A stretch of 64,000 nt of DNA from Rhizobium leguminosarum bv. trifolii WSM2297 (lineage in GTDB: Bacteria; Pseudomonadota; Alphaproteobacteria; Rhizobiales; Rhizobiaceae), in contig NZ_JH719395.1 in the NCBI RefSeq assembly GCF_000271845.1, positions 3,792,361-3,856,360 on the forward strand, given 5' to 3'. The notes below the pieces were generated by a model. The model ran no database searches. It was not told where the DNA came from and worked only from the letters and a program-made list of their open reading frames with translations. Position 1 is the first letter of the stretch; each line of letters starts with the position of its first letter. Positions 30,871 to 59,236 of this stretch are shown here, one piece after another. A program made the translations under genes and the position numbers.

Positions 30871-30980
30871 CGGCATTTTAAATGCCCGTTAACTTAAAAT
30901 GTAAGCGTTCCATTAACCATAATTATACCAATTGCTGAGCATTCTGCAGGGCGAACATATCGTGCCCTGAGGAATGATCG
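30871..30980 (+). promoter_or_regulatory. cpaB upstream region with a CtrA-like half-site
   Basis: This 110-base AT-rich gap contains TTAACCAT at 30913-30920, the word known from Caulobacter CtrA sites. It also has GTTAACTTAA at 30888-30897 and a palindrome CGGCATTTTAAATGCC around 30871-30886. It probably holds a promoter for cpaB-tadC. CtrA control is an inference from the motif. Confidence 0.4.
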
Positions 30981-31796: not shown

Positions 31797-31808
31797 GAGG
31801 ACGTGCAA

Positions 31809-34063: not shown

Positions 34064-34077
34064 GGCGGAACGGGACG

Positions 34078-35355: not shown

Positions 35356-35360
35356 ACGAT

Positions 35361-35450
35361 GAGCAATTCCTGCAAAACTGTGCAGCGGTTTTGCCAGGCA
35401 AAGCGCAAAGCGCTTTTGCCGGGAATTGCTTGAAAACAAAAAGATAGAGC
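35361..35450. repeat. RIME-like repeat inserted between cpaE and cpaF
   Basis: GAGCAATTCC (35361-35370) pairs with GGAATTGC (35422-35429). An inner dyad GGCAAAGCGC...GCGCTTTTGCC follows, and the element-specific tail AAAACAAAAAGATAGAGC is shared with the RIME at 13375. The second palindrome is lost. It separates two genes that usually lie close together in the cpa operon. Confidence 0.7.
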
Positions 35451-35467
35451 AGATTGGATTAAGCGGC

Positions 35468-36943: not shown

Positions 36944-36948
36944 GCGAG

Positions 36949-37956: not shown

Positions 37957-37971
37957 CCGGAAGGACGCCCC

Positions 37972-42623: not shown

Positions 42624-43505
42624 ATGACGATGCTCGACCGCCGCCTGCATGCCTATCGGCCCGATCTCGCCGAAGCGGGGCTCGAAGGCAAGGTAGAGGC
42701 GTCGCGCTTCGTCGAGGGCGCCCCGGCCCGCATTGCCGTTCCGGTCGCGGGCTTGCGCCCCGAACCGAACCTTGCGCGTGGCATCGATACCGAGCTGCTT
42801 CTTGGCGAGGATGTGACGGTGTTCGATCGCACCGGCGGCTGGTGCTGGGTGAAAGCCGCTTCGGACGGCTATGTCGGTTATCTCCCCGCAGAGGCGCTTT
42901 CGCAGGACAGGCCGGCGCCGACCCATATCGTCACCGTTCAGCGCACCTTCCTCTATCCGGAACCGGAGCTGCGCAAACCCCACCAGGCCATCCTGTCGAT
43001 GGGAAGCCGCGTCTATGTCGCCGGCGAGGCGGAAGCGCGCGGCAATCGCTATGTCGTGCTGGAGGATGGAACCGCGATCTTCGCCAGGCATGTCCAGCCG
43101 ATCGGCGGGCTCGACGGCGCCGATTACGTCGAGATCGCAGCCCGTTTCCTGGAGACGCCCTATCTCTGGGGCGGTCGGTCCGGCCTTGGCATCGATTGCT
43201 CCGGCCTCGTCCAGCTGGCGATGCTGATGACGGGCAGATCTGCGCCGCGCGATACCGACATGCAGGCGGCTGGCCTCGGCCAGCCGATCGACCGCTCTGA
43301 GGTCCGCCGCGGCGACTTGGCGTTCTGGAAGGGCCATGTTGCCGTCTTCGAGGATCCGGAAAACATCCTGCACGCCAACGGCCACAGCATGACGGTGTCG
43401 CGCGAGAATTTCGAGGCCGCCGTCAAACGTATCGGCGGGCTCTATGAGCAGCCGACCGGCTACCGCCGTCCATTTAGCGACTCGGCGGCCGCGGCCAGGC
43501 TTTGA
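42624..43505 (+). CDS. SH3-NlpC/P60 cell-wall hydrolase
   Basis: 293 residues, no signal peptide seen. SH3b-like domains occupy about residues 35-160 (GEDVTVFDRTGGWCWVKAASDGYVGYLP, then a second copy with VYVAGEAEARGNRYVVLEDG). The NlpC/P60 domain follows: catalytic Cys192 in GIDCSGLVQLAM, His238 in GHVAVFED and H250/H254 as the third polar residue. Likely cuts gamma-D-Glu-diaminopimelate bonds in murein peptides. The gene end overlaps the convergent amidase gene by about 30 bases. Confidence 0.9.
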   Translation: MTMLDRRLHAYRPDLAEAGLEGKVEASRFVEGAPARIAVPVAGLRPEPNLARGIDTELLLGEDVTVFDRTGGWCWVKAASDGYVGYLPAEALSQDRPAPTHIVTVQRTFLYPEPELRKPHQAILSMGSRVYVAGEAEARGNRYVVLEDGTAIFARHVQPIGGLDGADYVEIAARFLETPYLWGGRSGLGIDCSGLVQLAMLMTGRSAPRDTDMQAAGLGQPIDRSEVRRGDLAFWKGHVAVFEDPENILHANGHSMTVSRENFEAAVKRIGGLYEQPTGYRRPFSDSAAAARL

Positions 43506-44865
43506 CGCCGCCCGTCCAGTCTTCGAAGGCTTTCGACAGTCTCAGGACCCGCATGTCGTCAAAACGCGGCCCGACGATCTGCAGCCCGATCGGTAAGCCC
43601 GACCGGGAGAAGCCGCAATTGATCGAGGCGGCCGGCTGCTCCGACATGTTCCACGGAACCGTGAAACCGATATGCTCGAACGGCAGGGCCGGATCGTTGG
43701 TTGGCGATGCCCACTCGGCCGGATAGGAGATGATCGGATTGGTCGGCGACAGCAAGGCGTCGACCTCGGTGAACAGCCGTCCGCAACTCCTGCGCATCTC
43801 GATCGTCTGGTTGAAGCCCTTGACCGCATCGACGCCGCTGATATCGGCGCCGCCCTTCGCCCAATCACGGATATAGGGCAGGATGCTATTGCGCCTTCTT
43901 TCGTCGAGCCCTGCGATATCACCCCAGAGGCGGGATCGCCAGAAGTTGTCGAGCCCATCCAGCATCGCCTGTGTCAGCACCGGCTGGACGGATATAATGG
44001 TGGCGCCGGCCTTCTCGAAGTGTTTCGCCGCCGCTTCGACCGCGACCTTGATCTCGTCTTCCACCGCAAGCCCGCAGCCGGCATCGAGCATCAGCCCGAT
44101 CCTCATGCCCGATAAGTCGATGCCGAGATCCATCCAGTTGAAATCGTTTGGCGGCAGGCTGGTGCCGTCGCGCCAATCCGGTCGTGACAGCGTCGCCATC
44201 GAGAAGGCCGCATCCTCGACCGTGCGCGCCATCGGGCCGACGCAGCGCCCGACATAATAGGGATCGGCCGGAACGCGCCCATGGCTCGGTTTGAAGCCGA
44301 AAACGCCGGTCCAGCCGGCGGGAAGCCGCACCGAACCGCCGATATCGGTACCGATATGCAGTGGTCCGTAGCCGGCCGCCGCGGCTGCGGCAGCCCCGGC
44401 GCTTGATCCGCCGGGATTCTGAGTCCTGTCCCAGGGGTTGCGGCTGAGAGCATGAAAGCTTGAAAGGCCGGAGGACAGCATGCCGTAATCGGGGCAGGTG
44501 GTCTTGGCGAAGATCACCGCGCCATCCTCCCGCAGCCGGGCCGCAGCCGGCGCATCGGCATCCGCGGAGGTCAACTCTATCGCCTTCGTGCCGTACGGCA
44601 CCGGCTGACCCTTCGTGGCGATCAGTTCCTTGAGCGTCACCGGAATGCCGTCGAGGGGGCCGAGCGTTTGTCCCTTCGCCCGGCGCGCCGCTGACGCCTT
44701 CGCCTGTACGCGGGCCGCCTCCGGATCATAGAGGTAGAGTGCCGAAATCGAAGGCTCCCAGGCTGCGATGTGGTCTTCGAGAGCGAGCCAGTATTCGAGG
44801 GGCGACAGGCTTTTGTCAGTAAAGCGTCGCCTGAGTTCGCGGATGGTGAGGTCGGTTTCGGTCAT
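43474..44865 (-). CDS. Amidase (amidase-signature family)
   Basis: 463 residues from ATG 44865. The Ser-cisSer-Lys triad is visible: K79 in LDGIPVTLKE, S154 in GGSSAGAA, and the nucleophile S178 in TDIGGSVRLPAG. The spacing is right for the family, which includes GatA-like amidases and broad amide hydrolases. It overlaps the permease gene upstream by 50 bases, so it is the last gene of the LysR-linked peptide-transport unit. It probably hydrolyses an imported amide (inference). Confidence 0.9.
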   Translation of the reverse strand: MTETDLTIRELRRRFTDKSLSPLEYWLALEDHIAAWEPSISALYLYDPEAARVQAKASAARRAKGQTLGPLDGIPVTLKELIATKGQPVPYGTKAIELTSADADAPAAARLREDGAVIFAKTTCPDYGMLSSGLSSFHALSRNPWDRTQNPGGSSAGAAAAAAAGYGPLHIGTDIGGSVRLPAGWTGVFGFKPSHGRVPADPYYVGRCVGPMARTVEDAAFSMATLSRPDWRDGTSLPPNDFNWMDLGIDLSGMRIGLMLDAGCGLAVEDEIKVAVEAAAKHFEKAGATIISVQPVLTQAMLDGLDNFWRSRLWGDIAGLDERRRNSILPYIRDWAKGGADISGVDAVKGFNQTIEMRRSCGRLFTEVDALLSPTNPIISYPAEWASPTNDPALPFEHIGFTVPWNMSEQPAASINCGFSRSGLPIGLQIVGPRFDDMRVLRLSKAFEDWTGGVKAWPRPPSR

Positions 44866-45763
44866 GGCATGGTCTTTCGGGCTTTTCCTCTCGGGAGGAC
44901 ATCCGGCTCGCCTCGCGCGGGTCGAGAAGATCGCGCAACCCGTCGCCGAGCATATTGAAGCCGAAGACGGTGAGCGCGATGGCAAGGCCGGGCAGGATCG
45001 CCAGCCAGGGGGCCAGTGCCAGATAGGTTTGCGCATCGGAAAGCATCCGGCCCCAGCTTGGCGCCGGCGGCGCCATGCCGAGCCCGAGGAAGCTAAGGCC
45101 GGCCTCCGTCAGCATCGCCAGCCCGAGCTGGATCGCGGCGTGCACGATGATCTGGCTGATGATGTTCGGCAGCACATGGCGCAGTGAAATGGTCAGGCGC
45201 GTATTGCCGATCGCCCGTGCCGCCGTCACATAGTCGCGGCTCCAGGCCTGGAGCGAGGTCGCAAGCGTTACGCGGGCAAAGACCGGGATCATGAAGACGG
45301 CGATCGCGGTGATTGCGGTGAACCGCCCAGGCCCGAGAAAGGCCCCGAGCACCATGGCCGACAGGATCGGCGGCAAGGCGAAGATGACGTCGCAGACGCG
45401 CATCAGCAGCGTTTCGAAAGGACCGCGGATCGCCGCGGCCGCAATGCCTGATATCGAGCCGAGCATCCCGCCGATCGCAACCGCGGTAATGGCGATCGAC
45501 AGCGAATTCCAGCATCCGGCCATCAGCATCGACAGCACGTCGCGGCCGAACTGGTCGGTGCCAAGCAGGCCGAAGGACAACGGTGGCTGCAGTTTGTGGA
45601 TGATCTGCATCTTTCCCGGCGGCAGCGGCGTCCAGGCGAGCGACAGTAGTGCTATGGCGACCAGCAGGCTGACGATCACGGCGCCGGAAATCAAGTTCAT
45701 TCGCCGGCTAAGTTTGAAGCCTCGCCGGCGGACGGCGAACGCGGCGGATACGATCGGTGCCAT
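44816..45763 (-). CDS. Peptide-type ABC transporter permease (DppC-like)
   Basis: 315 residues, OppC_N plus BPD_transp_1 layout: N-terminal helix about 22-45, LLGTDQFGRDVLSMLMAG, several helices, the EAA loop ATSLQAWSRDYVTAARAIGN and the end LTVFGFNMLGDGLRDLLDPRE. It extends about 30 residues past that end in a charged tail overlapping the amidase start. Coupled with the DppB-like gene (3-base gap). Confidence 0.92.
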   Translation of the reverse strand: MAPIVSAAFAVRRRGFKLSRRMNLISGAVIVSLLVAIALLSLAWTPLPPGKMQIIHKLQPPLSFGLLGTDQFGRDVLSMLMAGCWNSLSIAITAVAIGGMLGSISGIAAAAIRGPFETLLMRVCDVIFALPPILSAMVLGAFLGPGRFTAITAIAVFMIPVFARVTLATSLQAWSRDYVTAARAIGNTRLTISLRHVLPNIISQIIVHAAIQLGLAMLTEAGLSFLGLGMAPPAPSWGRMLSDAQTYLALAPWLAILPGLAIALTVFGFNMLGDGLRDLLDPREASRMSSREEKPERPCHDRNRPHHPRTQATLY

Positions 45764-45766
45764 CCG

Positions 45767-46714
45767 TCAGGCCGCCTTTCTCATCCGCGGGTCGATCGCC
45801 AGATAGGAGAGGTCGACGATGAAATTCACCACAATGACGAGGGCTGCGAAGAACAATACGACATCCTGCATGACGATGATGTCGCGCTGGGAGAGCGCCT
45901 GCAGCGCCAGCCGTCCGAGGCCGGGCAGGTTGAAGACGTTTTCCACCAGCACCGCGCCGGCGACGAGAAAGGTGAATTGCAGCCCGATCATGGTGAGGAT
46001 CGGGATCAGCGCATTCGGCACGACATGCCGCCACAGCACCGCATTGCGCGAAAGCCCTTTGGCGACGGCGGTGCGGGCAAAATCCTCATGCAATGTGTCA
46101 AGCACCGCCGACCGCGCCACGCGCGTCAACACCCCCGCCTGCGGCATCGCCAGCGCCACGGCCGGCATGACAAGCGCCTGCAATGCCGGCAGCAGGCCGG
46201 CGCTCCAGCCCGGGAAACCGCCGGCCGGCATCAGCCCGAGCATCGTCGAAAACAGGATGATCAATAGCAGTGCCACCCAGAAGGCGGGCACGGCGATGCC
46301 GATCTGTGAAAACAGCGTCGCGATGATGTCGAAGACACCGCCGCGGCGCGCAGCGGCCAGCACACCAAGCGGCAGGGCAATCGTTACCGAAAGCACGATC
46401 GCCATCAGCGCCAACGGCAGCGTCACCGCCAGCCGCTCGACGATCAATCCCGCGACCGGCACGCCATACGTCAGGGAATTGCCGAGATTGCCCGACAGCA
46501 CGCCGGTCAGCCATTGCCCGTAACGCAGGATTAGCGGCTGGTCGAGCCCGAGATCATGGCGCAGCGCCGCTAAGGTCTCCGGGCTTGCGGAGGTGCCGAG
46601 CATGATCGAGGCGGGATCGCCGGGCAGGAGATCCATGACCGCGAAGATCAGCAGCGAGACGATGAGAAGGGTGAGGAGGAGACCGGCGAAGCGGCGGGCG
46701 AGGAGCGCGATCAT
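45767..46714 (-). CDS. Peptide-type ABC transporter permease (DppB-like)
   Basis: 315 residues from ATG 46714 (MIALLARRFAGLLLTLLIVS). Family marks are PGDPASIMLGTSASPETLAALRHDLGLDQPL after the first helix, the periplasmic loop and the EAA loop ARSAVLDTLHEDFARTAVAKGLSRNAVLWRHV. The repeat element at 46796 lies between this gene and the binding protein upstream. Confidence 0.92.
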   Translation of the reverse strand: MIALLARRFAGLLLTLLIVSLLIFAVMDLLPGDPASIMLGTSASPETLAALRHDLGLDQPLILRYGQWLTGVLSGNLGNSLTYGVPVAGLIVERLAVTLPLALMAIVLSVTIALPLGVLAAARRGGVFDIIATLFSQIGIAVPAFWVALLLIILFSTMLGLMPAGGFPGWSAGLLPALQALVMPAVALAMPQAGVLTRVARSAVLDTLHEDFARTAVAKGLSRNAVLWRHVVPNALIPILTMIGLQFTFLVAGAVLVENVFNLPGLGRLALQALSQRDIIVMQDVVLFFAALVIVVNFIVDLSYLAIDPRMRKAA

Positions 46715-47019: not shown

Positions 47020-48549
47020 TCACTCCCCCCAAGAAACCCCAGACAACACATTCGACGGGATCGGCTCGTTCTCCCACAACCCCTTCAGCTTCTTGTCCCA
47101 GACGCCGAGTTTCGGCATGACGAAGAGGTAGAGCGCCGGCACGTCCTCGGCGAGGATCTTCTGCGCTTCGCCATAGATCGCGTTCTGCGCGGTGGGATCG
47201 GCAGTTTCCTGGACCTTCTTCATCAGCGCGTTGAAGGTCGGGTTCTTGTAATTGAAATAATAGGGATCCCTGGCATAGATGTCGATGTCGAGCGGCTCGG
47301 CATGGGCGACGATGGTCATGTCGAAGTTACGGTCCTTCATGATGTCCTGGACCCATTTCGCCGGGAATTCGGTCGGTTCGATATTCATCGTCACGCCGAT
47401 CTCGGCAAACATCGCCTGCATCACCTGAGCGCTGCGCGGCGCATAAGCCATTTGCGGCGATTTGATCGTGAAGGTGAAGCCGTTGGGATAACCGGCTTCC
47501 GCAAGCAGCGCCTTGGCCTTCTCGACGTCATAGGGAAGCACGCCTGTCGTATCCTGATAGCCAGGATCGTTCGGCGTGTAGTGGCTGCCGATCGGCGTGC
47601 CGAGGCCGGACCATGCGCCGTCGATCACCGTCTTCCGGTCGATCGCCATCATCAGCGCCTGGCGGACCCGTTTGTCGTCGAAGGGCTTCTTGACATTGTT
47701 CATGCCGGCGATGACCTTGAGCTCGGTATTGCCGATCCTGGTGACGAGCCGCGCATCGCCGTCGAAAGAACTCATCAACTCGGGTGCGGCAAATTCCGGA
47801 AAGGCGTCGAGATCGCCGGATTTCAGCGCGGCCGCCTGCGCCTGCGGATCGGCGATGAAGCGGAACGTCACCTTGTCGAGCTTGGCCGCCACATCCTTGT
47901 TCCAGTAGTCGGCATTCTTTTCCAGCTCGACCTTGTCGCCCTTCGCCCAGCCGGCGAATTTGAAGGGACCGGTGCCGATCGGCGTCACCTTGTCGTCGGC
48001 AGCCGTCTTCGGTGCGACCATCACCGAGGCCGGCCAGCCGAGCCAGTAGATCAGGCTTCCCGTCGGCGCCGAGAGATGCAGCACCAGCGTTTCGGTATCG
48101 GGCGTATCGATCGAGGCGATCGAGGCGAAGAAGCGCTTCTGCGGATTGACCGAATCCGCGCCGCGGGCGCGGTCGAGCGAAAACTTGGCCGCCGTCGCAT
48201 CGAAGGCTTCGCCGTCATGGAATTTGACGCCGGTCTGCAGCTTGAACGTATAGGTGAGGCCATCCGGCGAAATCTCCCAGCTTTTCGCCAGTTGCGGCTG
48301 GATCTTGCCGGACTGGTCGATCGTCACCAGCCCCTCGAACACGTTCTGCCAGGTCACCTGGCCGATTGCCACAGGTGCGGCGCTCGTCGGGTCGAGGCCG
48401 GTCGGCTCGACGCTCATGCCGATGTTGAGCGTCGTTTTTGCCGCTTCCGCCGGCGTCATCGCCGTCATCACGACGCCGGCTGAAAGTGCGGCGGCGAGGG
48501 AAAGTCGCCGGACGAAGCGCGACGGCGCAAAAGAAAGCTCGATCATCAT
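47020..48549 (-). CDS. Peptide-type ABC transporter substrate-binding protein
   Basis: 509 residues, SBP_bac_5. The signal peptide ends about residue 36 (TPAEAA/KTTLNIG). Conserved blocks: SVEPTGLDPTSAAPVAIGQVTWQNVFEGLVTID, KSWEISPDGLTYTFKLQTGVKFHDGEAFDA and TPIGTGPFKFAGWAKGD. AGGGA lies before the ATG pair. It follows a LysR gene and its dyad-rich promoter region. Ligand unknown; a peptide or peptide-like amide fits the amidase neighbour. Confidence 0.92.
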   Translation of the reverse strand: MMIELSFAPSRFVRRLSLAAALSAGVVMTAMTPAEAAKTTLNIGMSVEPTGLDPTSAAPVAIGQVTWQNVFEGLVTIDQSGKIQPQLAKSWEISPDGLTYTFKLQTGVKFHDGEAFDATAAKFSLDRARGADSVNPQKRFFASIASIDTPDTETLVLHLSAPTGSLIYWLGWPASVMVAPKTAADDKVTPIGTGPFKFAGWAKGDKVELEKNADYWNKDVAAKLDKVTFRFIADPQAQAAALKSGDLDAFPEFAAPELMSSFDGDARLVTRIGNTELKVIAGMNNVKKPFDDKRVRQALMMAIDRKTVIDGAWSGLGTPIGSHYTPNDPGYQDTTGVLPYDVEKAKALLAEAGYPNGFTFTIKSPQMAYAPRSAQVMQAMFAEIGVTMNIEPTEFPAKWVQDIMKDRNFDMTIVAHAEPLDIDIYARDPYYFNYKNPTFNALMKKVQETADPTAQNAIYGEAQKILAEDVPALYLFVMPKLGVWDKKLKGLWENEPIPSNVLSGVSWGE

Positions 48550-48695: not shown

Positions 48696-49616
48696 TCAGT
48701 CTTTCGTATCGGGGCGGCGGCTGGTGCGTTCGCGCATGAACCTCTCGATGAAGTCCAGCAGCTTCGTCGCCGCGAAGGAGAGCTGCCGGTCCGGCGCGAC
48801 GCAGAGATCGACATGGGTGCGGATGCCGGTCTTGCCGGCGAGCGGAATGGCCAGCAGATGGCCCGCCTCGATCTCGCGGCGGACTGTCAGCGCCGGCAGC
48901 AGCGTGGCGGCAGCACCGCTGAGCACGAGTTCCTTCAGCATTTCGAGCGAACTGGTGACGAAGACAGGATCAAGGTTCAGCCCCTCTTTCTCGAACAGCG
49001 CGTCGAAGGCCTGGCGGAAGCCGAAGGATTGATCCGGCAGCGCCAATGCGTAGTCGGCGAGCTTCCTGATGGGGATTTCGGCATGCGCGGCAGCCGGATG
49101 CTGCGGCATGACGATGAGATCATAGGCGATCTCGGAGCGCAGCCGCACCTTGGTGCCTGAGATGACAGGCGCAAACAACGTTACCGCAATATCCGCCTCG
49201 GCACTGTTGACGGCGTCGACCGCCTGCCGCGCGCTGGTGATCGTCACGCTAAAACGCAGCTGCGGATATTTCAGGCTGAATTCGGCAAGCGCCGGAGCCA
49301 GGAGATTGGCGACGGTCGCACCGTTGGCATAGATGCTGACCCGGCCGCGCTGCAGGCCCTTCAGGTCTTCGATCAGCTGCTGCACGTGGTCGAGTTCGCG
49401 CAGCGTCCGCCCGGCGCGAGCGGCAAGCAACTCGCCGGCCGCCGTCAGCTTGACGCCGCGGGCGCTGCGTTCGACGAGCGGCGCGCCGAAATGATATTCG
49501 AGGTTCTCGATCTGCCGGCTGATTGCCGTCGGCGCGACGTTGAGGTTCTCGGCTGCCTGGCGCATCGAATTGGTCCTGACCAGTTCGTCGAAATACATCA
49601 GCGCCCGGATCTGCAT
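48696..49616 (-). CDS. LysR-family transcriptional regulator
   Basis: 306 residues. An N-terminal winged helix (about 1-60: LMYFDELVRTNSMRQAAENLNVAPTAISRQIENLEYHFGAPLVER) is followed by the LysR substrate-binding domain. It is transcribed on the same strand as the binding-protein gene that follows after 146 bases, with inverted repeats between. It most likely controls the peptide transport/amidase unit; the effector is unknown. Confidence 0.9.
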   Translation of the reverse strand: MQIRALMYFDELVRTNSMRQAAENLNVAPTAISRQIENLEYHFGAPLVERSARGVKLTAAGELLAARAGRTLRELDHVQQLIEDLKGLQRGRVSIYANGATVANLLAPALAEFSLKYPQLRFSVTITSARQAVDAVNSAEADIAVTLFAPVISGTKVRLRSEIAYDLIVMPQHPAAAHAEIPIRKLADYALALPDQSFGFRQAFDALFEKEGLNLDPVFVTSSLEMLKELVLSGAAATLLPALTVRREIEAGHLLAIPLAGKTGIRTHVDLCVAPDRQLSFAATKLLDFIERFMRERTSRRPDTKD

Positions 49617-49671: not shown

Positions 49672-50667
49672 TCAGTCGCCGGTAAGGTAGCGGTCGCGCC
49701 ATGCCTTTTGCGCGCCCTCGACCGGAAGGGCACTCGCCATGTAGACGCCGCGGGCGATCGCCCGGGCCATGACGATGGTGGCAAGATGGCAAAGCTCCAT
49801 CAGGCTCGCCATGTCGTCTCGGCGATGCCCGGCCGTCGAAGCGGCAAAGACGGTGTCGCCGTCGAGGGGCAGGTGCGCCGGCAGCAGCGCCCGGGCAAGA
49901 CCGTCATGGCCGGCGAGCGAAAGCCGATGCGCCTCGGCCTTGGTCAGCTGCGCGTCGGTCACCACCGCGCCGATCGTCGTCGCCGGCCCGTCCATGCCCT
50001 TGAGCCGCATCCGGTGATCGGCGATCGCAGGCATGCCGAGGCCGCCGAATTCGGCGTCTTTTTCGAAGGGTGCCGCCCAGAAATGCGGCCCGTCACCGAT
50101 CGTTGCGGAGCCGAGCGCATTGACGGCGACGATCGCCGCGACACGATGGCCGGCGCTGCTGACGGCGCTGGCCGAGCCGAGCCCGCCCTTGCAGGTGGAT
50201 GTCGTCGCCCCGGTCCCGGCGCCGGCGGTGCCGAGCCCAAATGCGCCCTTTGCGGCAGCCTTCAACGCAGCATAACCCATGTCGCGATAGGGTGAGTGCA
50301 GCCCCCAATCCTTGTCGCCGCCGTTCAGCAGGTCCATCAGGATCGCCTGCGGCACGATCGGTATGCGCACTGGCCCGACGGTGAAGCCGCGGCCGAGTTC
50401 GCGCAATCCCGCCTGCACGCCGCCGGCGGCATCGAGCCCGAAGGCCGAGCCGCCGGAGAGCACGAAGGCATCGACGGCGTTGACGGTCATCGACGGGTCG
50501 AGCAGGCTCGTATCGCGCCCGCCCGGCGCACCGCCGAGCACCGTGCCGGATGCAACGGCCGGTTCGTCGAAGACGATGACCGTGACGCCGGAACCGAGCA
50601 CGAGATCGGTCGCATGGCCGACGGAAACGCCGTCGATGTCGGTGAGCAGATTGAGAAGATCGGGCAA
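49672..50667 (-). CDS. P1-family (S58, DmpA-type) peptidase
   Basis: About 331 residues. The family self-cleaves before a Ser/Thr nucleophile to make aminopeptidases that act on D-amino acid or beta-peptides and amides. Seen: DGVSVGHATD, GGAPGGRDTSLLDP, AFVLSGGSAFGLDAAGGV and AGAGTGATTSTCKGGLGSAS; NALGS is a candidate cleavage/nucleophile site (I am not sure of the exact residue). No ATG opens it; TTG 50667 with AAGGA 8 bases upstream fits best, and a TTG at 50718 gives a longer form. It precedes the LysR gene by 55 bases. Confidence 0.8.
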   Translation of the reverse strand: MPDLLNLLTDIDGVSVGHATDLVLGSGVTVIVFDEPAVASGTVLGGAPGGRDTSLLDPSMTVNAVDAFVLSGGSAFGLDAAGGVQAGLRELGRGFTVGPVRIPIVPQAILMDLLNGGDKDWGLHSPYRDMGYAALKAAAKGAFGLGTAGAGTGATTSTCKGGLGSASAVSSAGHRVAAIVAVNALGSATIGDGPHFWAAPFEKDAEFGGLGMPAIADHRMRLKGMDGPATTIGAVVTDAQLTKAEAHRLSLAGHDGLARALLPAHLPLDGDTVFAASTAGHRRDDMASLMELCHLATIVMARAIARGVYMASALPVEGAQKAWRDRYLTGD

Positions 50668-50724
50668 GGGCGGATCCTTATGCGGAAAGGCCGCCGATAG
50701 GACTGCAATTGCCCTCAAAAAACA

Positions 50725-50752
50725 AGACCGGCCCCTTGGCAGGACCGGTCAC
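50725..50752 (-). terminator. Terminator after the small conserved protein gene
   Basis: GACCGG (50729-50734) pairs with CCGGTC (50745-50750). Read on the minus strand, the stem is followed by TTGTTTTTTG. It ends the transcript of the small gene at 50790 and isolates it from the peptidase gene. Confidence 0.65.
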
Positions 50753-50789
50753 ATCAGGAAGCCGCAAAATCGGGAGCGGCCGCATGCCG

Positions 50790-50984
50790 TCAGGCATGAA
50801 GCGGCTTCGGATGACGGCGGGTCATCAGATCGTGGATGGCCAGCCGCACCTCATCGGGCGAGCCGAAACGCTGCTCGTCGAGGTCGTGGACATGAAATTT
50901 CACAGCGATGAATTTCAGCCGATCTTCGTCGGGAATTACGATCCCGACGGGAACGCCTGCATATTCGATAACTTGCTTCTTCAT
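50790..50984 (-). CDS. Small conserved rhizobial protein
   Basis: 64 residues: MKKQVIEYAGVPVGIVIPDE, then RLKFIAVKFHVHDLDEQRFGSPDEVRLAIHDLM. TAGGAG is 9 bases before ATG 50984, and a terminator follows. The compact alpha/beta pattern and good start signals argue for a real gene. No function is known to me; similar short proteins occur in related rhizobia (recollection). Confidence 0.65.
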   Translation of the reverse strand: MKKQVIEYAGVPVGIVIPDEDRLKFIAVKFHVHDLDEQRFGSPDEVRLAIHDLMTRRHPKPLHA

Positions 50985-51505
50985 AGATAGAACTCCTACC
51001 GCGCGACATGCGCAGCCATGGCGAATTGACTTGTCTGGTACCGTTGAAAGGAGGACGAACGTCACATTCGACAGTTCGGGCGGGAGAGGGCGCCCGGACG
51101 GTCATTGCCAAGCACAGATCGCCCAAGGAGATCGGCGAGAATATCGATGTTTATCATACTCGTTCCTTGCGTTGGCGTTGCACTTGAATGGTCCCGGAAG
51201 AACCCGGGGCCGGCGGTGGCTGCCTGAGATAATCTACTAATTTGGTAGAGATTACCCGGTAACCTGTCAGAAACATATTCCGAAACGTGTCAAAATATCG
51301 ACGATCCGAAAAAATTCATTCCACCTTCAGTCAAACTTACGGAAAGAAACATATCAGCTCTTCGTAAAATTCGCATGACAGAATCTCAACTCTTTCGACC
51401 GTCGCGGCAGACATAGGAAGCCTCGCTGATTCAGGCAATGGGCCGTTTCGTTAAAAATCGAAATGCCTCGAAATGACCGATTTGGTTAATACGGGAAAGG
51501 CCCGC
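50985..51505. other. AT-rich intergenic region of about 520 bases
   Basis: No gene is convincing. The stretch 51230-51480 is unusually AT-rich for this genome, with an imperfect dyad around 51231-51256 (AATCTACTAATTTGGTAGAGATT). It probably holds the promoter of the small gene at 50984, and the 3' end of the fusion gene's transcript lies at its right side. Confidence 0.4.
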
Positions 51506-54427
51506 TCACCAGCCTTCGTCGAGCACCTTTTCCAGCATGTCTACGAAGAAATCGGCGCTTTCGATGCTGAGGCAGAGCGGCGGTTTGATCTTCAGCACAT
51601 TTTGGTGATCGCCGGTCGGCTGCATGATCACGCCGAGATCGAGCAGCCGGTCGCAGATGGCGGCCGTCTCTTCCGTCGCCGGCTCCAGCGTCGTTCTGTC
51701 GCGGACGAATTCGAGGCCGAGATAAAGGCCCATGCCGTGCACGGCCCCGGCGATCGGGTAGCGGTCGATCAGTGCGGCAAGCCGCGCCTTCAGATGATCG
51801 CCGACCGTGCGGGCATTTTCCTGCAACGCCTCCTCGGCCATGATGTCGAGCACCGTCATGCCGGCGACGCAGCTGACCGGGCTGCCGCCCGTGGACGAAA
51901 AGAAGGTGCCCTCTTTCTCCAGCGACCCGGCGATCTCCCGTGTGGTGATGACGGCGCCGAGCGGATGGCCGTTGCCCATGCCCTTGGCGATGGTGATGAT
52001 ATCGGGCACGACGCCTTGCTGTTCGAAGCCCCAGAAATAATGGCCGAGCCTGGAATAACCGACCTGCACCTCATCGGCGATGCAGAGGCCGCCGCGGGCG
52101 CGCACTCCAGCATAGACCTGGCCGAGATACCCGTCCGGCAGTGGAATGCCGCCGGCATTACCGTAGACCGATTCGCAGATGAAGCCGGCAAGGCCCTCGC
52201 CGCCGGCATCGATCGCCTCCAGCACCGGCGTTATGGCGCCGAGATAGGCCGCCGCCGTATCGGGACCGCGGAATGCGCCGCGATAGGTATTCGGCGAAAC
52301 GACGGCATGCACCCAGTCGGGCCTTGTGGTCGGCGCCTGCGGATTGTCGGCGATCGAGGTGGAGACGGCGTCGCTCGCCGCCGACCAGCCATGATAGGCT
52401 TCGAGCAGGCAGAGCATATTGCGGGCGCCGCTGTGAGCCTGCGCCAGCCGGATCGCCAGATCGTTCGCCTCCGAGCCGCTGTTGACGAGGAAGACCGTGT
52501 CGAGCCCATCCGGGGCCAGTGCGGCGAGGCGTTCCGAAAATTCCGTGATCGCGGCGTAGTGGAAGCGCGAATTGGTGTTTAGCCGCAGCCATTGGGCGCT
52601 GATCGCCGCTGCGAGCTTTGGATGGCCGTGGCCGAGAATGGAGACGTTGTTGACCATGTCGAGATAGGCGCGGCCCTCGACGTCGAACAAATGCTCCCGC
52701 CAGCCGCGCTCGATTTGCGGCGGCGCCGCGTAATAATTCTTCTGCGCCCCTGCGAGATGCGCCTGCCGCTTGGCGAGCAGCTCGGCGGTCTCAGGTTTCG
52801 GCGCATCGGCTCCGGGGTCGAGAAGCAGCGCGGGAGAAGGGCAGAGCACAGACCAGGCCGCTGCCTCGCGCGGTGTGGCAAAGAGCGGCGGCTCAAGCCC
52901 GGCGACGCTGCAAAGCTGCACGCGCAGCCCGCCGAGCGACGAAGCCTCTCCGACAACCGCGCCGAGTGGGTCGCCGCTGGCAACCTCGGCTTCATTCTCG
53001 ACCGAGAGGTCGAGCCCGTCGAGGTGCAGGGTCATGCCGTCGCCGGTCAGCGTCAGATGCTGGTCCTTCCAGCCGATCCGGCCGGCAAAGGGCGCGGCGA
53101 CCGCGCTGCCGGCGGCAAGGCATATGTCGACATGCAGGGCGCTGGTCGCCTGTCTTCCGGCGGTTCCGGCGCGGGAAAGCCGATATTCGCCGTAGCGCGT
53201 CGCTGCCGTACCGTTTTCGGTCGCAGCGCGGGCCAGCAGCCGCCAGTCCATGTCGGCATTCAGCCAGTTGCCGGCGGAAAGATGCGGGCTCCGCACCCCA
53301 AGATCGACATAGGCGATCGCGGCAGGATCGATGTCAGGTAGCAGCGGCAGCCATCCCGACGTTTCCGGGGTCGCAATATCCGCGCCGGCTGCCTTGAGGA
53401 TCGCGGCTTCCATCAATTCGAAGGGAACGGACATTGCCGTATCGAAGATCGCCCACTCGCGGTCGAGATTGCCGCGGGCATAGTCATTATCCGGATCGAC
53501 TGAAATCTGCTGTTCGCCGCTGGCGACGAGAATGACCGCGCGCGCGACGACCAATGGCCAGAGTGCCTTCAGCTCCTCCTCGGTCAGCGGATAGATCGCC
53601 TGATAGGCAGTGACGGCAGGCAGGATATGAAAAGGGTCGCCCTCTGCCTGGTGCAGCAGCGAAGCGCAGGTGACGGCGAGGTCGCCGACCAGCCAGCCGC
53701 GGATGATGTCGCCGAAATCGATTACCCCGTCGGGAATGGTGTGGCCATGGGCATTGCGGTGACCGACGACATTGTCGCCGGTGACGTCGTGATGCACCGC
53801 CTGCAGCCGAAGCGATGGCGCCAAGGGCTGGATGCGGCGAACGGCCATCACCATGGTCTTGGCGATCCGGTCGCGCGCGGCGCTGTCGGTGATGGCGGAA
53901 AGCAGCTGCACCGCGACCGGCCCGGCCCGCCGGAGATCCCATTGCAGGCTGCGGTCGAGGCCGGGATGGTTGAAATCGGCGAGCGCCTGCGCCAGCCTCG
54001 CGCAGAGCGCGCCGAGTGCGGCAACGGAGGCCGGCGCCAGGTAGGTCAGCTCCGCCAGCCCCCGGCCTTCCAGATATTCCAACAGCCGGACTTGGTAGCC
54101 CTGTCCGCGCAGGGTCAGGACGACGATCTCCCGCCCGTCATTGGTTGCGATCACATTGGGAACGCGTGGCGCATCCTGCTTGCTCTTGAGGTGGTGGATC
54201 GCGGCATTCTGCGCTTCGAGTTCGCGGGTCTCGTAGGCGGCATGGCAGACCTTCAGGACGTAGCGGCCGCGATCACTATCGACGCGGTAGTTCCGATCCT
54301 GCTGGCTGCCGAGTTCGGCAATGGTGCCGGACAGACTGTAATGGGCAAGAAGGATCTCTTCCGCGTCGGCAGCGGTCACGTCGGGACGCGGCAGCGCCAT
54401 GCGATCAACAAGCGCCTCGTCGGTCAT
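51506..54427 (-). CDS. Kinase / M23-like barrel / class III aminotransferase fusion
   Basis: 973 residues, three parts. Residues about 20-340 form an APH-type kinase: HHDVTGDN at 212-219 has the H-x-D....N catalytic pattern, and DFGD at 238-241 binds metal. About 410-530 resembles an M23/lipoyl-like barrel (LHVDICLAAGSAVAAPFAGRIG), but the HxH zinc signature is replaced by LRVQL. Residues about 550-973 are a PLP class III aminotransferase-fold enzyme with VNSGSEANDLAIRLA, IADEVQVGYSR and Lys815 in TIAKGMGNGHPLG. The combination matches sugar- or amino-alcohol kinase plus phospho-lyase logic (AGPHD1 plus AGXT2L type): phosphorylate, then eliminate phosphate and ammonia. The substrate is inferred only. 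GGGAGGGG precedes the ATG. Confidence 0.88.
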   Translation of the reverse strand: MTDEALVDRMALPRPDVTAADAEEILLAHYSLSGTIAELGSQQDRNYRVDSDRGRYVLKVCHAAYETRELEAQNAAIHHLKSKQDAPRVPNVIATNDGREIVVLTLRGQGYQVRLLEYLEGRGLAELTYLAPASVAALGALCARLAQALADFNHPGLDRSLQWDLRRAGPVAVQLLSAITDSAARDRIAKTMVMAVRRIQPLAPSLRLQAVHHDVTGDNVVGHRNAHGHTIPDGVIDFGDIIRGWLVGDLAVTCASLLHQAEGDPFHILPAVTAYQAIYPLTEEELKALWPLVVARAVILVASGEQQISVDPDNDYARGNLDREWAIFDTAMSVPFELMEAAILKAAGADIATPETSGWLPLLPDIDPAAIAYVDLGVRSPHLSAGNWLNADMDWRLLARAATENGTAATRYGEYRLSRAGTAGRQATSALHVDICLAAGSAVAAPFAGRIGWKDQHLTLTGDGMTLHLDGLDLSVENEAEVASGDPLGAVVGEASSLGGLRVQLCSVAGLEPPLFATPREAAAWSVLCPSPALLLDPGADAPKPETAELLAKRQAHLAGAQKNYYAAPPQIERGWREHLFDVEGRAYLDMVNNVSILGHGHPKLAAAISAQWLRLNTNSRFHYAAITEFSERLAALAPDGLDTVFLVNSGSEANDLAIRLAQAHSGARNMLCLLEAYHGWSAASDAVSTSIADNPQAPTTRPDWVHAVVSPNTYRGAFRGPDTAAAYLGAITPVLEAIDAGGEGLAGFICESVYGNAGGIPLPDGYLGQVYAGVRARGGLCIADEVQVGYSRLGHYFWGFEQQGVVPDIITIAKGMGNGHPLGAVITTREIAGSLEKEGTFFSSTGGSPVSCVAGMTVLDIMAEEALQENARTVGDHLKARLAALIDRYPIAGAVHGMGLYLGLEFVRDRTTLEPATEETAAICDRLLDLGVIMQPTGDHQNVLKIKPPLCLSIESADFFVDMLEKVLDEGW

Positions 54428-54541: not shown

Positions 54542-55426
54542 TCAACCCATGCGTTCGGACGCGTAGCTGCCGGGGCTGGCCGGGAAGACCACGGTGCGGT
54601 TGCCGTTGATGAAGGTGCGGTGGTGGATATGGGCGTGGATGGCGCGCGCCAGCACCTGGCTTTCGACATCGCGGCCGATCGAGACGTAATCGTCGGGCGA
54701 CTGCGCGTGGGTGATGCGTGCCGTGTCCTGCTCGATGATCGGGCCTTCGTCGAGATCGGCGGTGACGTAATGGGCGGTTGCCCCGATCAGCTTGACGCCG
54801 CGGCCATAGGCCTGCTTGTAGGGATTGGCGCCCTTGAAGCTCGGCAGGAAGGAATGGTGGATGTTGATGATCTTGCCCGACATCTTCTGGCACATTTCGT
54901 CCGACAGGATCTGCATGTAGCGGGCAAGCACGATCAACTCGGTGCCGGTCTGCTCGGCCACATCCATGATACGGGCTTCGGCCTGAACCTTGTTGGCCTT
55001 GGTGACCGGAATATGGTGGAAGGGAATGTCGTGATTGACCACGACCTTCTGGTAGTCGAAATGGTTGGAAACGACGCCGACGATATCGATCGGCAGCGCG
55101 CCGATCTTCCATCGGTAGAGCAGGTCGTTGAGGCAATGGCCGAAGCGCGACACCATCAGCAGCACCTTCATGCGCTTCTCGCTGTCGTGAAACTCGTACT
55201 CCATCTCGAAGGGTGCTGCGACGGCTGAAAAATCGGCGCCGATCTCGCTGCCGGAAAGCCCCTCTTCCGAAATGAAGCTGACACGCATGAAGAACTTGCC
55301 AGTATCGAGATCGTCGAACTGCGAGCTGTCGATGATGTTGCAGCCCTTGTCGGCCAGATAGCTCGAAATCGCCGCAACGATGCCGCGCGTCGACTTGCAG
55401 GATACCGTCAATACATAGCTTCTCAT
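54542..55426 (-). CDS. purU: Formyltetrahydrofolate deformylase
   Basis: Hydrolyses 10-formyl-THF to formate and THF, balancing the one-carbon pool. 294 residues: ACT domain (about 1-85: VLTVSCKSTRGIVAAISSYLADKGCNI) and formyltransferase-type domain (about 88-294). The catalytic block INIHHSFLPSFKGANPYKQAYGRGVKLIGATAHYVTADLDEGPII contains the HxSxLPxF motif and Asp. A good ribosome site (GAGGAAGGGAAAG) precedes the ATG. It lies 114 bases upstream of the fusion gene on the same strand, and cotranscription is possible. Confidence 0.94.
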   Translation of the reverse strand: MRSYVLTVSCKSTRGIVAAISSYLADKGCNIIDSSQFDDLDTGKFFMRVSFISEEGLSGSEIGADFSAVAAPFEMEYEFHDSEKRMKVLLMVSRFGHCLNDLLYRWKIGALPIDIVGVVSNHFDYQKVVVNHDIPFHHIPVTKANKVQAEARIMDVAEQTGTELIVLARYMQILSDEMCQKMSGKIINIHHSFLPSFKGANPYKQAYGRGVKLIGATAHYVTADLDEGPIIEQDTARITHAQSPDDYVSIGRDVESQVLARAIHAHIHHRTFINGNRTVVFPASPGSYASERMG

Positions 55427-55717: not shown

Positions 55718-56734
55718 TTAGGCCGGAGGACGGCTCGTCACCGCAACCTTCCGGCGCGGCGTGGTGATTTCATGGATGATCGCGCCGCCGATCGACGAGA
55801 GCACCAGCGCCAGGACCACGAAGAGCACCGGCTGCTTGAAGATGCCGATCGGCAGGCGGTCGGCGGCGACCCTCAGGAAAGCCAGCGTGAAGGCGTGGGT
55901 GATATAGATGCTGTAGGAGCAGTCGCCGAGATAGTTCAGCCATGCGAGGACCGGCAGCCTGGAAAAGTCGATGGAAACGGCGCCATAGACGATGAAGATC
56001 GCCGGAATCCCCCAGGCGTAGAACCGGCTTTCCGGCCGCATCAGCGCCTCGTTGATGAAGAGGAACGCAAAGCCCATGGCAAGTGCTGCCCATGCCCAGC
56101 GGTTCGGCAGAAGCATTTTCTGCCGGTAGAGCCAGCCGAGCACGACGCCGGCGAGAAACTCCAGGATGATCGGCTCGCCGTAGAACCGGGTCGCCGTCGT
56201 TTCCGACAGCAGCCGGCAGGCGATCAGGATGACGGCGAAGACGGCAAACATTGCCGGGATGCGACGGGTTTCCGAGAGCGGCAGCAGCAGCGCGAAAATG
56301 AGATAGAAGAACATCTCGTAATTCAGCGTCCAGCCTGGCACGACGACAGGGGTGATGGTGCTCGGATCGGCGGGATTGGCCCATGGCAGAAAGAGCAGCG
56401 AGGCAATCAAATGCGGCAGGTCGAACACTGTCGATTTCAGCAATGACGGGGCCACCAGCGCCACGACAGCCGAAAACAGCGTTGCCAGCCAATAGAGCGG
56501 GACGATGCGTTTGATGCGCCGGCGGGCGAAATCGATGGGGCTCATCGCCCGTCCGCTCGTCGTCAGCCACATCACGAGACCGCTGAGCACGAAGAAGATG
56601 TCGACGCCGGTCTCACCATAGACGAAGGCAGTGGCATCGAGCGCCGGATTGACCTTGGCAAGCTGCAATATCGCGTGGAAATAGACGACCATCAGCGCCG
56701 CGACGGCGCGCAGATATTGAAGCTGGACAAGCAT
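55718..56734 (-). CDS. Acyltransferase-3 family membrane protein (ExoZ-like)
   Basis: 338 residues with about ten membrane helices. Family marks: LQYLRAVAALMVVYFHA at the N-terminus with the catalytic-type His, GVDIFFVLSGLVMW, and FARRRIKRIVPLYW. These proteins O-acylate surface polysaccharides; ExoZ acetylates succinoglycan. It lies 46 bases after the Wzy-like gene, so it may acylate the polymer made by this cluster (inference). Confidence 0.88.
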   Translation of the reverse strand: MLVQLQYLRAVAALMVVYFHAILQLAKVNPALDATAFVYGETGVDIFFVLSGLVMWLTTSGRAMSPIDFARRRIKRIVPLYWLATLFSAVVALVAPSLLKSTVFDLPHLIASLLFLPWANPADPSTITPVVVPGWTLNYEMFFYLIFALLLPLSETRRIPAMFAVFAVILIACRLLSETTATRFYGEPIILEFLAGVVLGWLYRQKMLLPNRWAWAALAMGFAFLFINEALMRPESRFYAWGIPAIFIVYGAVSIDFSRLPVLAWLNYLGDCSYSIYITHAFTLAFLRVAADRLPIGIFKQPVLFVVLALVLSSIGGAIIHEITTPRRKVAVTSRPPA

Positions 56735-56780
56735 CCGGTGTCTTGCTCCTCGGGCTCGCGCGGGCGCCGTGCCGCTGCGG

Positions 56781-58055
56781 TCAACTCTTTACATCCGCCG
56801 CACGATCCTGCCGGAGGCGCGGGCTGTCGTGGAAGCGCATAAATCCGACGACGAACCACAGGAGCCCGGCGATCTTCATCGAGAAAACCGCGGTGCCCCC
56901 GATCATCATATTCAGAAAAATGAAAAGAGAAAGTGAATGGGCGCAACGCCGCTGCGCCGCCGTGCGCCCGGCCGGAAAGAGGCAGACGAACAGCCATAGG
57001 GCGATGACGCCGAAGATCGTCGCCGCGTAGATCAAGTAGACATAGCCGCTGTCGGCGAATTCGGCGACCCGGTCGACCGAAAGCCCGAGAATGGCGAGCG
57101 GATCGAGCTCCATGATCTTCTTCATCGTCAGGTTGATGCGGCCGGTGAAATTGTCGCCGGTCGCATTGGGTTTCAAGGTGTAGACGATAAACCCCGCAAC
57201 GACGATCAGCGGCATCAGCGCCAGATTGAAATTCCTCGGGATCTTCGGAAAGACGAAATAGCCGACGATGCAGGCAAAACAGAAGATCAGCATCGTGCGG
57301 GTGTCGTTCGTCACCAGGATCAGCACCGCCGTGCCGATGAACAGCAGCCGGTCCCAGCGGCCTATTCTTTCCCACATGGAAATCAGATAGATCGCGATCA
57401 CGCCGCAGAAATTGGCGAGCGAGACCTGTTCGAGGAAGATCGACGACGAGCGGTGGTCGATGATGCCGAAGGAGAAACGCTCGGGAAAACCGAGTGCGTT
57501 CTGGAACAGGCCCGTCGTGTTGTAGCTCAGCGGCAGCAGCCCGCGCGTATTGGCGAAATAATCGGACGGATGCACGATGCTGACATAGAACGGCACGCTG
57601 ACGATCTCGAAGATCAGGAAGATCATGACGGCAAGGCTTGCCCAGCGAAAGGCGAGCTTCATCGTCTTCTCGTTGCTCCAGCCGCCGAGCCCGGTAAAGC
57701 AGAAGATGATCAGCACGTTGCGGAAATGATCGACGAACAGCATGCGGTTGAGCACGCTGACATAGATCGTCACGACAAGCGTGAACAGCAGGAACAGGAA
57801 AGCCGGCAGATCGGTCTCGTAGATCCCCTTGTGCAGGATGTAGATGATGGCGCTCGCCATGATCAGCCCTTCGCTGGCGGCGACATGCGTCATCGAGAGC
57901 GGCGCGATGTTGTGGTTGACGAAGGCGAGAATGCCGTTGTAGAGCACCGACAGCAGGCCGAGCCAGAGCAGGGTATGATCGGTCCGCGCCGCTTCGCCGG
58001 CTACACTGCCGGCTGCGGGGAAAGCTGCCTTCTGGTCGAGGACCGCCACCATCAA
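56781..58055 (-). CDS. Wzy / O-antigen ligase-like polysaccharide protein
   Basis: 424 residues with about ten to twelve membrane segments, including ILILVTNDTRTMLIFCFACIVGYFVF and FLLFTLVVTIYVSVLNRMLFVDHFR. The large periplasmic loop has the Arg-rich TNDTRTM stretch typical of the O-antigen ligase/polymerase (PF04932-like) family, to which ExoQ also belongs. Its ATG overlaps the GH5 gene stop, so the two are coupled. Confidence 0.8.
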   Translation of the reverse strand: MMVAVLDQKAAFPAAGSVAGEAARTDHTLLWLGLLSVLYNGILAFVNHNIAPLSMTHVAASEGLIMASAIIYILHKGIYETDLPAFLFLLFTLVVTIYVSVLNRMLFVDHFRNVLIIFCFTGLGGWSNEKTMKLAFRWASLAVMIFLIFEIVSVPFYVSIVHPSDYFANTRGLLPLSYNTTGLFQNALGFPERFSFGIIDHRSSSIFLEQVSLANFCGVIAIYLISMWERIGRWDRLLFIGTAVLILVTNDTRTMLIFCFACIVGYFVFPKIPRNFNLALMPLIVVAGFIVYTLKPNATGDNFTGRINLTMKKIMELDPLAILGLSVDRVAEFADSGYVYLIYAATIFGVIALWLFVCLFPAGRTAAQRRCAHSLSLFIFLNMMIGGTAVFSMKIAGLLWFVVGFMRFHDSPRLRQDRAADVKS

Positions 58056-59101
58056 TGCCCCACCGGCTTGACAGCGCTGCAGGCGCCGGCTTTGGCTTTT
58101 GCCGAATTGGCGAGAAGCCGCATCTGCGGCCGTTCCGTGCCCTTTCGCGGCTGGACGTTGAACGGCTCATCGGGCGGCCACCATTCGCCCCCGGCCCAAT
58201 AAGACCAGCCGAGCCAGGCGTCGCCATTATCGGACATGGTGGAATAGATCTCGGTCAGCCCGCTCATGCAGTCCTTGTCGGCAGAGACGCCGAATTCGCC
58301 GAGAAAGCCGCGCTTGTGGTTCTTCTTCAGCCAGGCGGTGACGCCGGCGATCGCTTCGACCGCGGCGTTGGCACCCTCGCAGGTCGGATGCGTTCCGGAG
58401 GAATCGACGTCGAGATACTGGTGAACCTCGTAAGCGTAGAAGTCGAGCGGATCGCGCACGCCGAGCATCACCGTGCCGTTGGCGCCGCCGATCACGTCCT
58501 GTTCCCAGCTGTGAGCGCCGCTCCAGGCGGTGCCTGGCACCAGGATGAGGTTGCGGGCGCCGACGGCGCGGATGCTGCGGATCGCCGCATTGGCGGCATC
58601 GAGCCAGTCCGTCGCCTTGATATCGTGCGGCTCGTTCATCAGGCCGAAGAGCACGCCGTCCTGATTGGCGAATTCGACCGCAAGCCTTGCCCAGAAATCA
58701 CCAAAGGCGGCATCCGACGCCGGCGCCGTGCCGATCTGCGTCTTGTCGTAATAGCCGAAATTATGCGGGTCGAGCAGCACGGCCATGCCGTGCTTGCGGA
58801 TCAGCCCGACGGTATCCTTGATCCGCTTGAGTTCGTCCTCGTCGAGCCGGCCGCCGAGCGCCGGCTGCAGCCGCTCCCAACGGAAGGGCAGCCGGACGAT
58901 CGTCATGCCCTTTTGGGCGAAATATCCGATCGTGTCTTCGCTGGGGTAGGTGTAATTCGTCCCGTAAATGCCGTCGCGCTCGCCATATTCGCCGCCGGAA
59001 AGATTGACGCCGCGATAACAGGGCGGGTCGGCCGCAAGGGTCGGCGAGGGGACGAGAGCGGCCGCAAGCAGCAGCGCCGTCAGATGTCGTCTCGTCCTCA
59101 T
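58052..59101 (-). CDS. Secreted glycoside hydrolase family 5 (endoglucanase-like)
   Basis: 349 residues. Signal peptide about 1-23 (ends TLAADPPC). The TIM-barrel catalytic residues of GH5 are E157 in LFGLMNEPHD (acid/base) and E269 in FLGEFGVSADKDC (nucleophile). Also seen: GMTIVRLPFRWERLQPAL and YEVHQYLDVDSSGTH. GAGGAG lies 5 bases before ATG 59101. It likely cuts a beta-glucan-type polymer in the periplasm or outside, perhaps trimming the product of the neighbouring Wzy-like protein (inference). Confidence 0.9.
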   Translation of the reverse strand: MRTRRHLTALLLAAALVPSPTLAADPPCYRGVNLSGGEYGERDGIYGTNYTYPSEDTIGYFAQKGMTIVRLPFRWERLQPALGGRLDEDELKRIKDTVGLIRKHGMAVLLDPHNFGYYDKTQIGTAPASDAAFGDFWARLAVEFANQDGVLFGLMNEPHDIKATDWLDAANAAIRSIRAVGARNLILVPGTAWSGAHSWEQDVIGGANGTVMLGVRDPLDFYAYEVHQYLDVDSSGTHPTCEGANAAVEAIAGVTAWLKKNHKRGFLGEFGVSADKDCMSGLTEIYSTMSDNGDAWLGWSYWAGGEWWPPDEPFNVQPRKGTERPQMRLLANSAKAKAGACSAVKPVGH

Positions 59102-59236
59102 GGCACTCCTCGCAATCGCGGCAAATCGCAACATCGGCGTCGCTGAGATTATTTTAACGGTCCGTTAGCTAAGAATTTCTAAAGTCTGAGCACCTCGGCT
59201 TCAGTCTTTCACGCTGGGCAGGACACGAGTGCGCGT
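59102..59236. promoter_or_regulatory. Divergent promoter region GH5 / Wzz-like
   Basis: 135 bases between divergent genes of the polysaccharide cluster. It contains the AT-rich ATTATTTTAACGGTCCGTTAGC around 59149-59170, with an imperfect dyad AACGG/CCGTT (59156-59160 with 59162-59166). A shared regulator could act here. Confidence 0.4.

Follow-up and report, generated by a model that had tools for sequence, protein, structure and literature searches.

A 64,000-nucleotide stretch of the genome of Rhizobium leguminosarum bv. trifolii WSM2297 (contig NZ_JH719395.1, positions 3,792,361 to 3,856,360; hereafter the window) carries a minus-strand gene for a 973-residue fusion protein of the NCBIfam family PRK06149. 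This single protein is probably a bifunctional catabolic kinase and phospho-lyase for an amino alcohol, with a middle barrel that most likely serves as a spacer and derives from a decayed M23 metallopeptidase domain. The kind of enzyme pair and the family are already known; the family is mislabelled and the variant is unusual, and what had not been expected is the decayed M23 domain. In window coordinates, the gene and its parts, including the domain dependent on pyridoxal 5'-phosphate (PLP), are the following:

51506..54427, minus strand: the whole fusion gene, 973 aa (NCBIfam PRK06149)
53393..54427, minus strand: kinase domain, residues 1-345, APH/homoserine-kinase fold, with H212-x-D214...N219, D237-F-G-D240 and Lys59 (Pfam APH, residues, fold searches, PDB profile)
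52910..53149, minus strand: barrel, residues about 427-506, a decayed M23/LytM metallopeptidase domain with its zinc ligands lost (profile-profile match, ligand counts, strands in models)
51506..52792, minus strand: class III PLP-dependent domain, residues 546-973 plus stop, predicted phospho-lyase (Pfam, PDB sequence, tree, fold, residue comparison)
51983..51985, minus strand: codon of Lys815, the PLP Schiff-base lysine (aligned with GabT Lys268 and ETNPPL Lys278)

The open reading frame (ORF) of the fusion occupies the minus strand, and the plus-strand translation of the same stretch is interrupted by stops. Several long antisense ORFs overlap the gene; a simple codon-model script, which was used in place of an annotation pipeline to call the neighbouring genes, retains the minus-strand gene alone there. 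The PRK06149 model (NF004800) spans residues 1-973 and scores 1649.1 bits, well above its curated cut-off of 973, whereas PRK06148 (NF004799) gives 701.8 bits, below its cut-off of 1128; the protein thus belongs to the former family and not to the latter. Pfam recognizes APH at residues 38-265 (E 3.1e-24, 86.5 bits) and Aminotran_3 at 572-969 (E 8.8e-66). The gene is present in 37/37 same-genus genomes, in one of them as a fragment at a contig end. Comparison with five orthologues gave dN/dS values of 0.10-0.15 for the kinase, 0.17-0.44 for the barrel and 0.08-0.20 for the PLP domain, so that purifying selection acts on all three parts, the barrel being the most weakly constrained and the fastest-evolving. 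Given full-length orthologues in 36 of the 37 genomes and the low dN/dS, the fusion gene is not a product of chance. A preliminary description, made from the DNA letters alone, had proposed a three-part fusion of 973 residues, and the ORF, Pfam, NCBIfam and the orthologues bear it out; HHDVTGDN (212-219), DFGD (237-240) and Lys815 lie where it had put them, and the structure prediction of the full chain that it called for is confident (AlphaFold2, mean pLDDT 89.9, pTM 0.89).

The N-terminal domain has the features of an APH-fold small-molecule kinase, namely the HxDxxxxN motif, DFGD and an N-lobe lysine. H212, D214, N219, D237, G239 and D240 are kept in all 121 aligned PRK06149 sequences (the window protein and the 120 relatives listed). 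A dead kinase site, which would have counted against the preliminary description, was sought in the sequence; the catalytic residues are invariant and the site, as read from them, is complete. A single-sequence search of the kinase against the PDB returned no match, and relatives surfaced only by profile, the best being the (S)-1-amino-2-propanol kinase 6ef6 of the RMM/Aaum microcompartment (~17% identity). Both are APH-fold small-molecule kinases, and RMM loci resemble the window fusion in holding a phosphotransferase together with an aminotransferase-like gene. The 6ef6 kinase is, however, a separate protein of a microcompartment pathway, and Pfam, run on seven window neighbours, found no shell gene.

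The nearest solved sequences to the C-terminal PLP domain are both phospho-lyases: human ETNPPL (AGXT2L1, PDB 6tor; 41% identity) and the Arthrobacter aurescens phospholyase A1RDF1 (PDB 5g4i; 34.5%). Both are stand-alone enzymes, unlike the window protein, and ETNPPL has neither kinase nor barrel. Lys815 is found in 120 of the 121 PRK06149 sequences, the remaining one having a gap at this position, and the phospho-lyase fingerprint (Asn593-Asn594, Arg621, Asn819 and Lys946 with the Schiff-base lysine) is present as in the two solved enzymes. The transaminase pair of GabT, E211/R398, is replaced by Asn757/Lys946, whereas all four E. coli aminotransferases compared have both the Arg and the gateway Glu of omega-aminotransferases. 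The preliminary description had suggested setting the active site against those of AGXT2L-type enzymes and aminotransferases; transaminase-only features were sought in the sequence and, at Lys946 and Asn757, not found.

A maximum-likelihood tree of 57 PLP domains, fourteen of them from PRK06149, agrees with the residues (midpoint root; rows L043_x and L048_x, in wrong reading frames, were excluded). PRK06149, PRK06148, two-part fusions, stand-alone lyases, ETNPPL and A1RDF1 split together from the aminotransferases and DGD with support of 100/100. The assignment of the PLP domain as a phospho-lyase, and not an aminotransferase, is therefore well supported by sequence, residues and tree together. 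Within the lyase-like group, the PRK06149 rows are monophyletic (100/100), group with the five actinobacterial rows of the tree and are sister to everything else under the midpoint root (98/95). ETNPPL groups with the PRK06148 rows (89/94, a value that the program does not count as firm) and A1RDF1 with the stand-alone lyases (99/87), so PRK06149 stands beside the clade that holds both and is not bracketed by the characterized enzymes; the exact rooting is insecure because the tree program flagged long branches.

Active-site residues also set the family apart. Trp681 occurs in 121/121 PRK06149 sequences; the 120 PRK06148 proteins have His or Asn there, and no other lyase-like row compared has Trp. 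Position 846 is Thr, Ala or Ser in PRK06149 but Phe or Tyr in the remaining lyase-like rows compared. Only Trp681 and the absent aromatic at 846 stand as lineage markers: Asn757 was dropped, being found too in lyase-like rows L036, L041, L044 and L047, as was Ser849, found too in L013 and L142. ETNPPL differs from the window protein at all four positions (681, 757, 846 and 849).

The identity of the middle barrel came from comparison with PRK06148, which has the same order of APH kinase, middle domain and class III PLP domain at 31-34% identity to the window protein (rows blasted). In the 120 PRK06148 matches listed, the part between kinase and lyase is a Pfam Peptidase_M23 domain (PF01551 at 2.4e-14 in the protein of L014), and its residues are intact: first His in 118/120, Asp in 120/120, the YxHL His in 116/120 and the two His of HxH in 118/120 and 120/120. 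Alignment of the PRK06149 barrel with the PRK06148 M23 region by hhalign covered 181 columns (prob 98.6, E 7e-16) and indicates common ancestry. In PRK06149, by contrast, the first zinc His is kept in 0/121 sequences and the second His of HxH in 1/121, while the Asp persists in 115/121 and the His at the YxHL position in 119/121; the zinc ligands of HxGxD and HxH are thus not retained as a set. On the strength of the profile-profile match and the lost ligands, we regard the barrel as a decayed M23 domain. The change would most naturally have run towards decay in PRK06149, for a canonical M23 site would hardly be expected to evolve afresh. The relation is a matter of profile comparison because both fold searches were filled by kinase or PLP-domain matches, which makes the missing M23 entries in the fold lists uninformative. 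With E allowed up to 1, Pfam M23 has no match to the window protein, a Streptomyces PRK06149-type protein gives a sub-threshold match (E 0.061), and the barrel sequence found no meaningful match in the PDB. The barrel is most likely unable to bind zinc and probably acts as a spacer between the catalytic parts. The preliminary description had a barrel in this place but left its identity unexplained; its presence is confirmed, and its identity is the decayed M23 domain.

Kinase and lyase are paired in other arrangements as well. L020:9619-11994 encodes a 791-aa direct kinase-lyase fusion with no middle domain, and at L015:7980-10537 stand-alone kinase and lyase genes are adjacent on one strand, their ORFs overlapping by four bases; the pairing is therefore recurrent. 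Proteins of 774-819 aa from L035-L039, L046 and L049, which fall in the same clade as L020 and were compared in their lyase part, may be similar two-part fusions. The lyase domains of five PRK06148 proteins are 46-55% identical to ETNPPL. One genome has a gene of the PRK06148 type in tail-to-tail arrangement with a PRK06149 gene (G344:C35:34103-40110); the match to the latter contains one internal TAG. In L014:7965-11000, L024:13127-16180 and the 120 PRK06148 proteins, the chain begins with the kinase domain and holds a complete M23 zinc site ahead of the PLP lyase. This intact domain is puzzling in itself, given that M23 enzymes are best known as hydrolases of the cell wall.

We propose that the N-terminal domain would act as kinase on a vicinal amino alcohol (an amine beside the OH-bearing carbon), transferring phosphate from ATP to the hydroxyl. 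The PLP domain would then bind the amine via Lys815-PLP and eliminate the phosphate, and hydrolysis of the remaining enamine would give an aldehyde or ketone as well as ammonia, with no amino acceptor required and with the barrel as spacer between the two parts. Both reactions and their order are predictions from sequence, as is the union of kinase and phospho-lyase chemistry in one chain that the preliminary description had put forward, which gains support from the complete kinase site, the lyase residues and the recurrent pairing. In animals, AGPHD1 and then AGXT2L2 act on hydroxylysine, while AGXT2L1 uses phosphoethanolamine made by another kinase. The logic of a kinase followed by an ammonio-phospho-lyase is thus the same in the animal pair HYKK/AGPHD1 and PHYKPL/AGXT2L2, which are two separate proteins and not one fused chain. 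The animal succession invoked earlier holds for hydroxylysine, but for phosphoethanolamine it was a simplification. Nor can the animal substrates simply be carried over, with ETNPPL and A1RDF1 in the sister group and with Trp681 and position 846 peculiar to PRK06149: because the family is a separate lineage with active-site residues of its own, we keep the chemistry and drop these substrates. Most likely the substrate is a small amino alcohol or a hydroxylated amino acid different from those of the animal enzymes.

The genes around the fusion in the window are:

54542..55426, minus strand: purU, formyltetrahydrofolate deformylase, directly upstream (NCBIfam PurU)
49672..50667, minus strand: peptidase of family S58 (DmpA-like), downstream neighbour (Pfam)
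48696..49616, minus strand: LysR-type regulator (Pfam)
47020..48549, minus strand: family 5 (dipeptide-type) solute-binding protein (Pfam)
44816..46714, minus strand: two permeases of the same ABC importer as the family 5 solute-binding protein (Pfam)
43474..44865, minus strand: amidase-signature hydrolase (Pfam)

A same-strand purU lies directly upstream in 28 of the 37 same-genus genomes, with gaps of 98-912 bases, and is missing from that place in G013 and G031; in G003, G004, G005, G017, G024, G030 and G032 the gene or its start lies within ~1 kb of a contig end, so that linkage there cannot be judged. Several same-genus genomes (G015 and others) have multiple copies of purU, one of them with as many as six matches at E 1e-110. 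In the ~0.8 kb gap that separates the S58 peptidase from the fusion (50668-51505), one small ORF is listed on the minus strand (50790-51065). In a distant Rhizobium-genus genome, the purU-fusion pair follows glutamine-synthetase-like and glutamate-synthase-like genes (L018:2635-18821, Pfam; one locus), a stretch that resembles a cluster for breakdown of methylated amines by the N-methylglutamate pathway. In another genus (L135), a dipeptide-type importer and S58 peptidase, 64-74% identical to those of the window, adjoin the fusion in a different order. For L137-L141 the neighbourhood survey covers a minority of the genes.

Among actinobacterial loci (34 Streptomyces-type and 46 other, from the best 80 of 562 relatives), the Streptomyces-type ones have an Lrp/AsnC regulator directly upstream in 29/34; in another two it is downstream. 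These loci have an amidase within ~10 kb in 9/34 and a dipeptide-type importer in 8/34, which may be a coincidence of two large families given that the amidases are just 30-32% identical to that of the window. The other actinobacterial loci have a same-strand alpha/beta hydrolase directly upstream in 27/46 (L102:9102-9968 and 26 more; Pfam of one) and an isochorismatase-family gene nearby in 9/46; amidase and importer are not common neighbours there. For PRK06148, a divergent Lrp/AsnC gene adjoins in 9 of 16 loci examined, one of them truncated at the gene itself, and several have binding proteins of the amino-acid type (SBP_bac_3) close by (Pfam for one locus). Taken together, the neighbourhoods suggest that a nitrogen compound is broken down under regulation, and a hydrolase may be what releases it; the context does not single out the compound.

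Several other readings were weighed against that of a kinase/phospho-lyase with its own substrate. With the chemistry unchanged, the substrate could be ethanolamine or 1-amino-2-propanol, which would make the protein a cobalamin-free route to acetaldehyde or propionaldehyde and ammonia. This is possible but on balance doubtful: the closest solved kinase by profile is the aminopropanol kinase, the closest solved lyase is ETNPPL, and a EutB match is absent from 27/37 same-genus genomes, yet the active site is unlike ETNPPL at Trp681, Asn757, Thr846 and Ser849, and neither an aldehyde dehydrogenase nor an ethanolamine permease was found among the seven neighbours given to Pfam. Complementarity of EutB and PRK06149, sought as a clue to ethanolamine, gave no signal among the 151 family genomes and the 37 same-genus genomes; EutB occurs in 3/14 Rhizobiaceae genomes with PRK06149 and in 23/137 without it, which is no mutual exclusion (two draws of the 151 genomes are taken here as the same genomes). 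We consider 5-hydroxy-L-lysine, which the kinase would convert to 5-phosphohydroxylysine and the lyase to 2-aminoadipate semialdehyde, a quite improbable substrate. The kinase-lyase logic has its classic example in the animal pair (by the title of Veiga-da-Cunha 2012), and the Lrp/AsnC genes upstream in Streptomyces-type loci would suit it, as would those at PRK06148 loci with their SBP_bac_3 proteins, which fit an amino acid substrate there. PRK06149 nevertheless falls outside the ETNPPL/PRK06148 clade, and its window neighbours (purU, S58 peptidase, dipeptide-type importer) include no lysine genes.

More radical departures concern the domains themselves. That the PLP domain is a true omega-aminotransferase, or has another class III activity (racemase, decarboxylase), with the kinase an unrelated partner, seems to us very improbable. 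The database name 'aminotransferase' speaks for it, as does the fold, which is common to class III enzymes of several activities at Z values close to that of A1RDF1. Arg at 946 and Glu at 757 are, however, absent where the phospho-lyase residues are present, the tree separates the domain from aminotransferases at full support, and a kinase accompanies the lyase, fused or adjacent, in three arrangements. The barrel, for its part, is unlikely to be a working component (allosteric, carrier-like or peptidase) instead of a decayed spacer. It is under purifying selection (dN/dS 0.17-0.44), folds with high confidence in the model and keeps the M23 Asp and one His position in most sequences; but the first zinc His is lost in 121/121 and the second His of HxH in 120/121, it evolves fastest of the three parts, and the two-part fusion of L020 manages without it. 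A three-step origin would connect barrel and neighbours: an intracellular M23 domain would free a peptide- or amide-bound amino alcohol, the kinase would phosphorylate it and the lyase would remove phosphate and ammonia. PRK06148 would retain all three sites, and in PRK06149 the cutting would have decayed and been taken over by separate hydrolases, which a dipeptide-type importer would feed in part. The S58 peptidase, amidase and importer of the window, the amidase and importer type of some Streptomyces, and the alpha/beta hydrolase upstream in many mycobacterial loci can be cited for it; we nonetheless rate this scenario as rather unlikely.

Should the kinase/phospho-lyase assignment hold, the names carried by these proteins would be wrong. 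The PRK06149 model is named only 'aminotransferase' in NCBIfam, and database names for relatives are 'aminotransferase', 'hypothetical protein' and even 'dialkylglycine decarboxylase'. In a scan, capped in scope, of bacterial species genomes, 562 stretches encode relatives; the scan began with a Streptomyces query and the best 80 kept were all Actinomycetota, so it is uninformative on wider distribution. Among the titles and abstract openings listed by searches of an open literature library, one of them by the family names, no paper deals with PRK06149 or PRK06148. PMC12138971 states that gene fusions can reveal functions when neither partner's function is known, and the order of its references suggests that Veiga-da-Cunha 2012 is cited for this point. 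The assignment would also imply a cobalamin-free route of amino alcohol breakdown in all 37 same-genus genomes examined, and the fusion would offer a single protein in which both steps, and any channelling of the phosphorylated intermediate between them, could be studied.

We found 843 relatives among 8000 scored candidates; the 120 listed are at least 64% identical and nearly all full length, and the named organisms among them are mostly Rhizobium, Sinorhizobium/Ensifer and other Rhizobiaceae. PRK06149 exceeded its cut-off in 14/151 genomes sampled from the family and in 1/240 sampled from the class. Relatives also occur in Actinomycetota (Streptomyces, Kitasatospora, Nonomuraea, Mycolicibacterium and Agromyces). 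Elsewhere in the window, a tad/cpa pilus-like gene cluster (30352-38958) was recognized by eye from predicted protein starts, and a polysaccharide-synthesis-like run of genes at 55718-60859 (acyltransferase, polymerase-like membrane protein, cellulase-like hydrolase and chain-length regulator) from sequence, again by eye.

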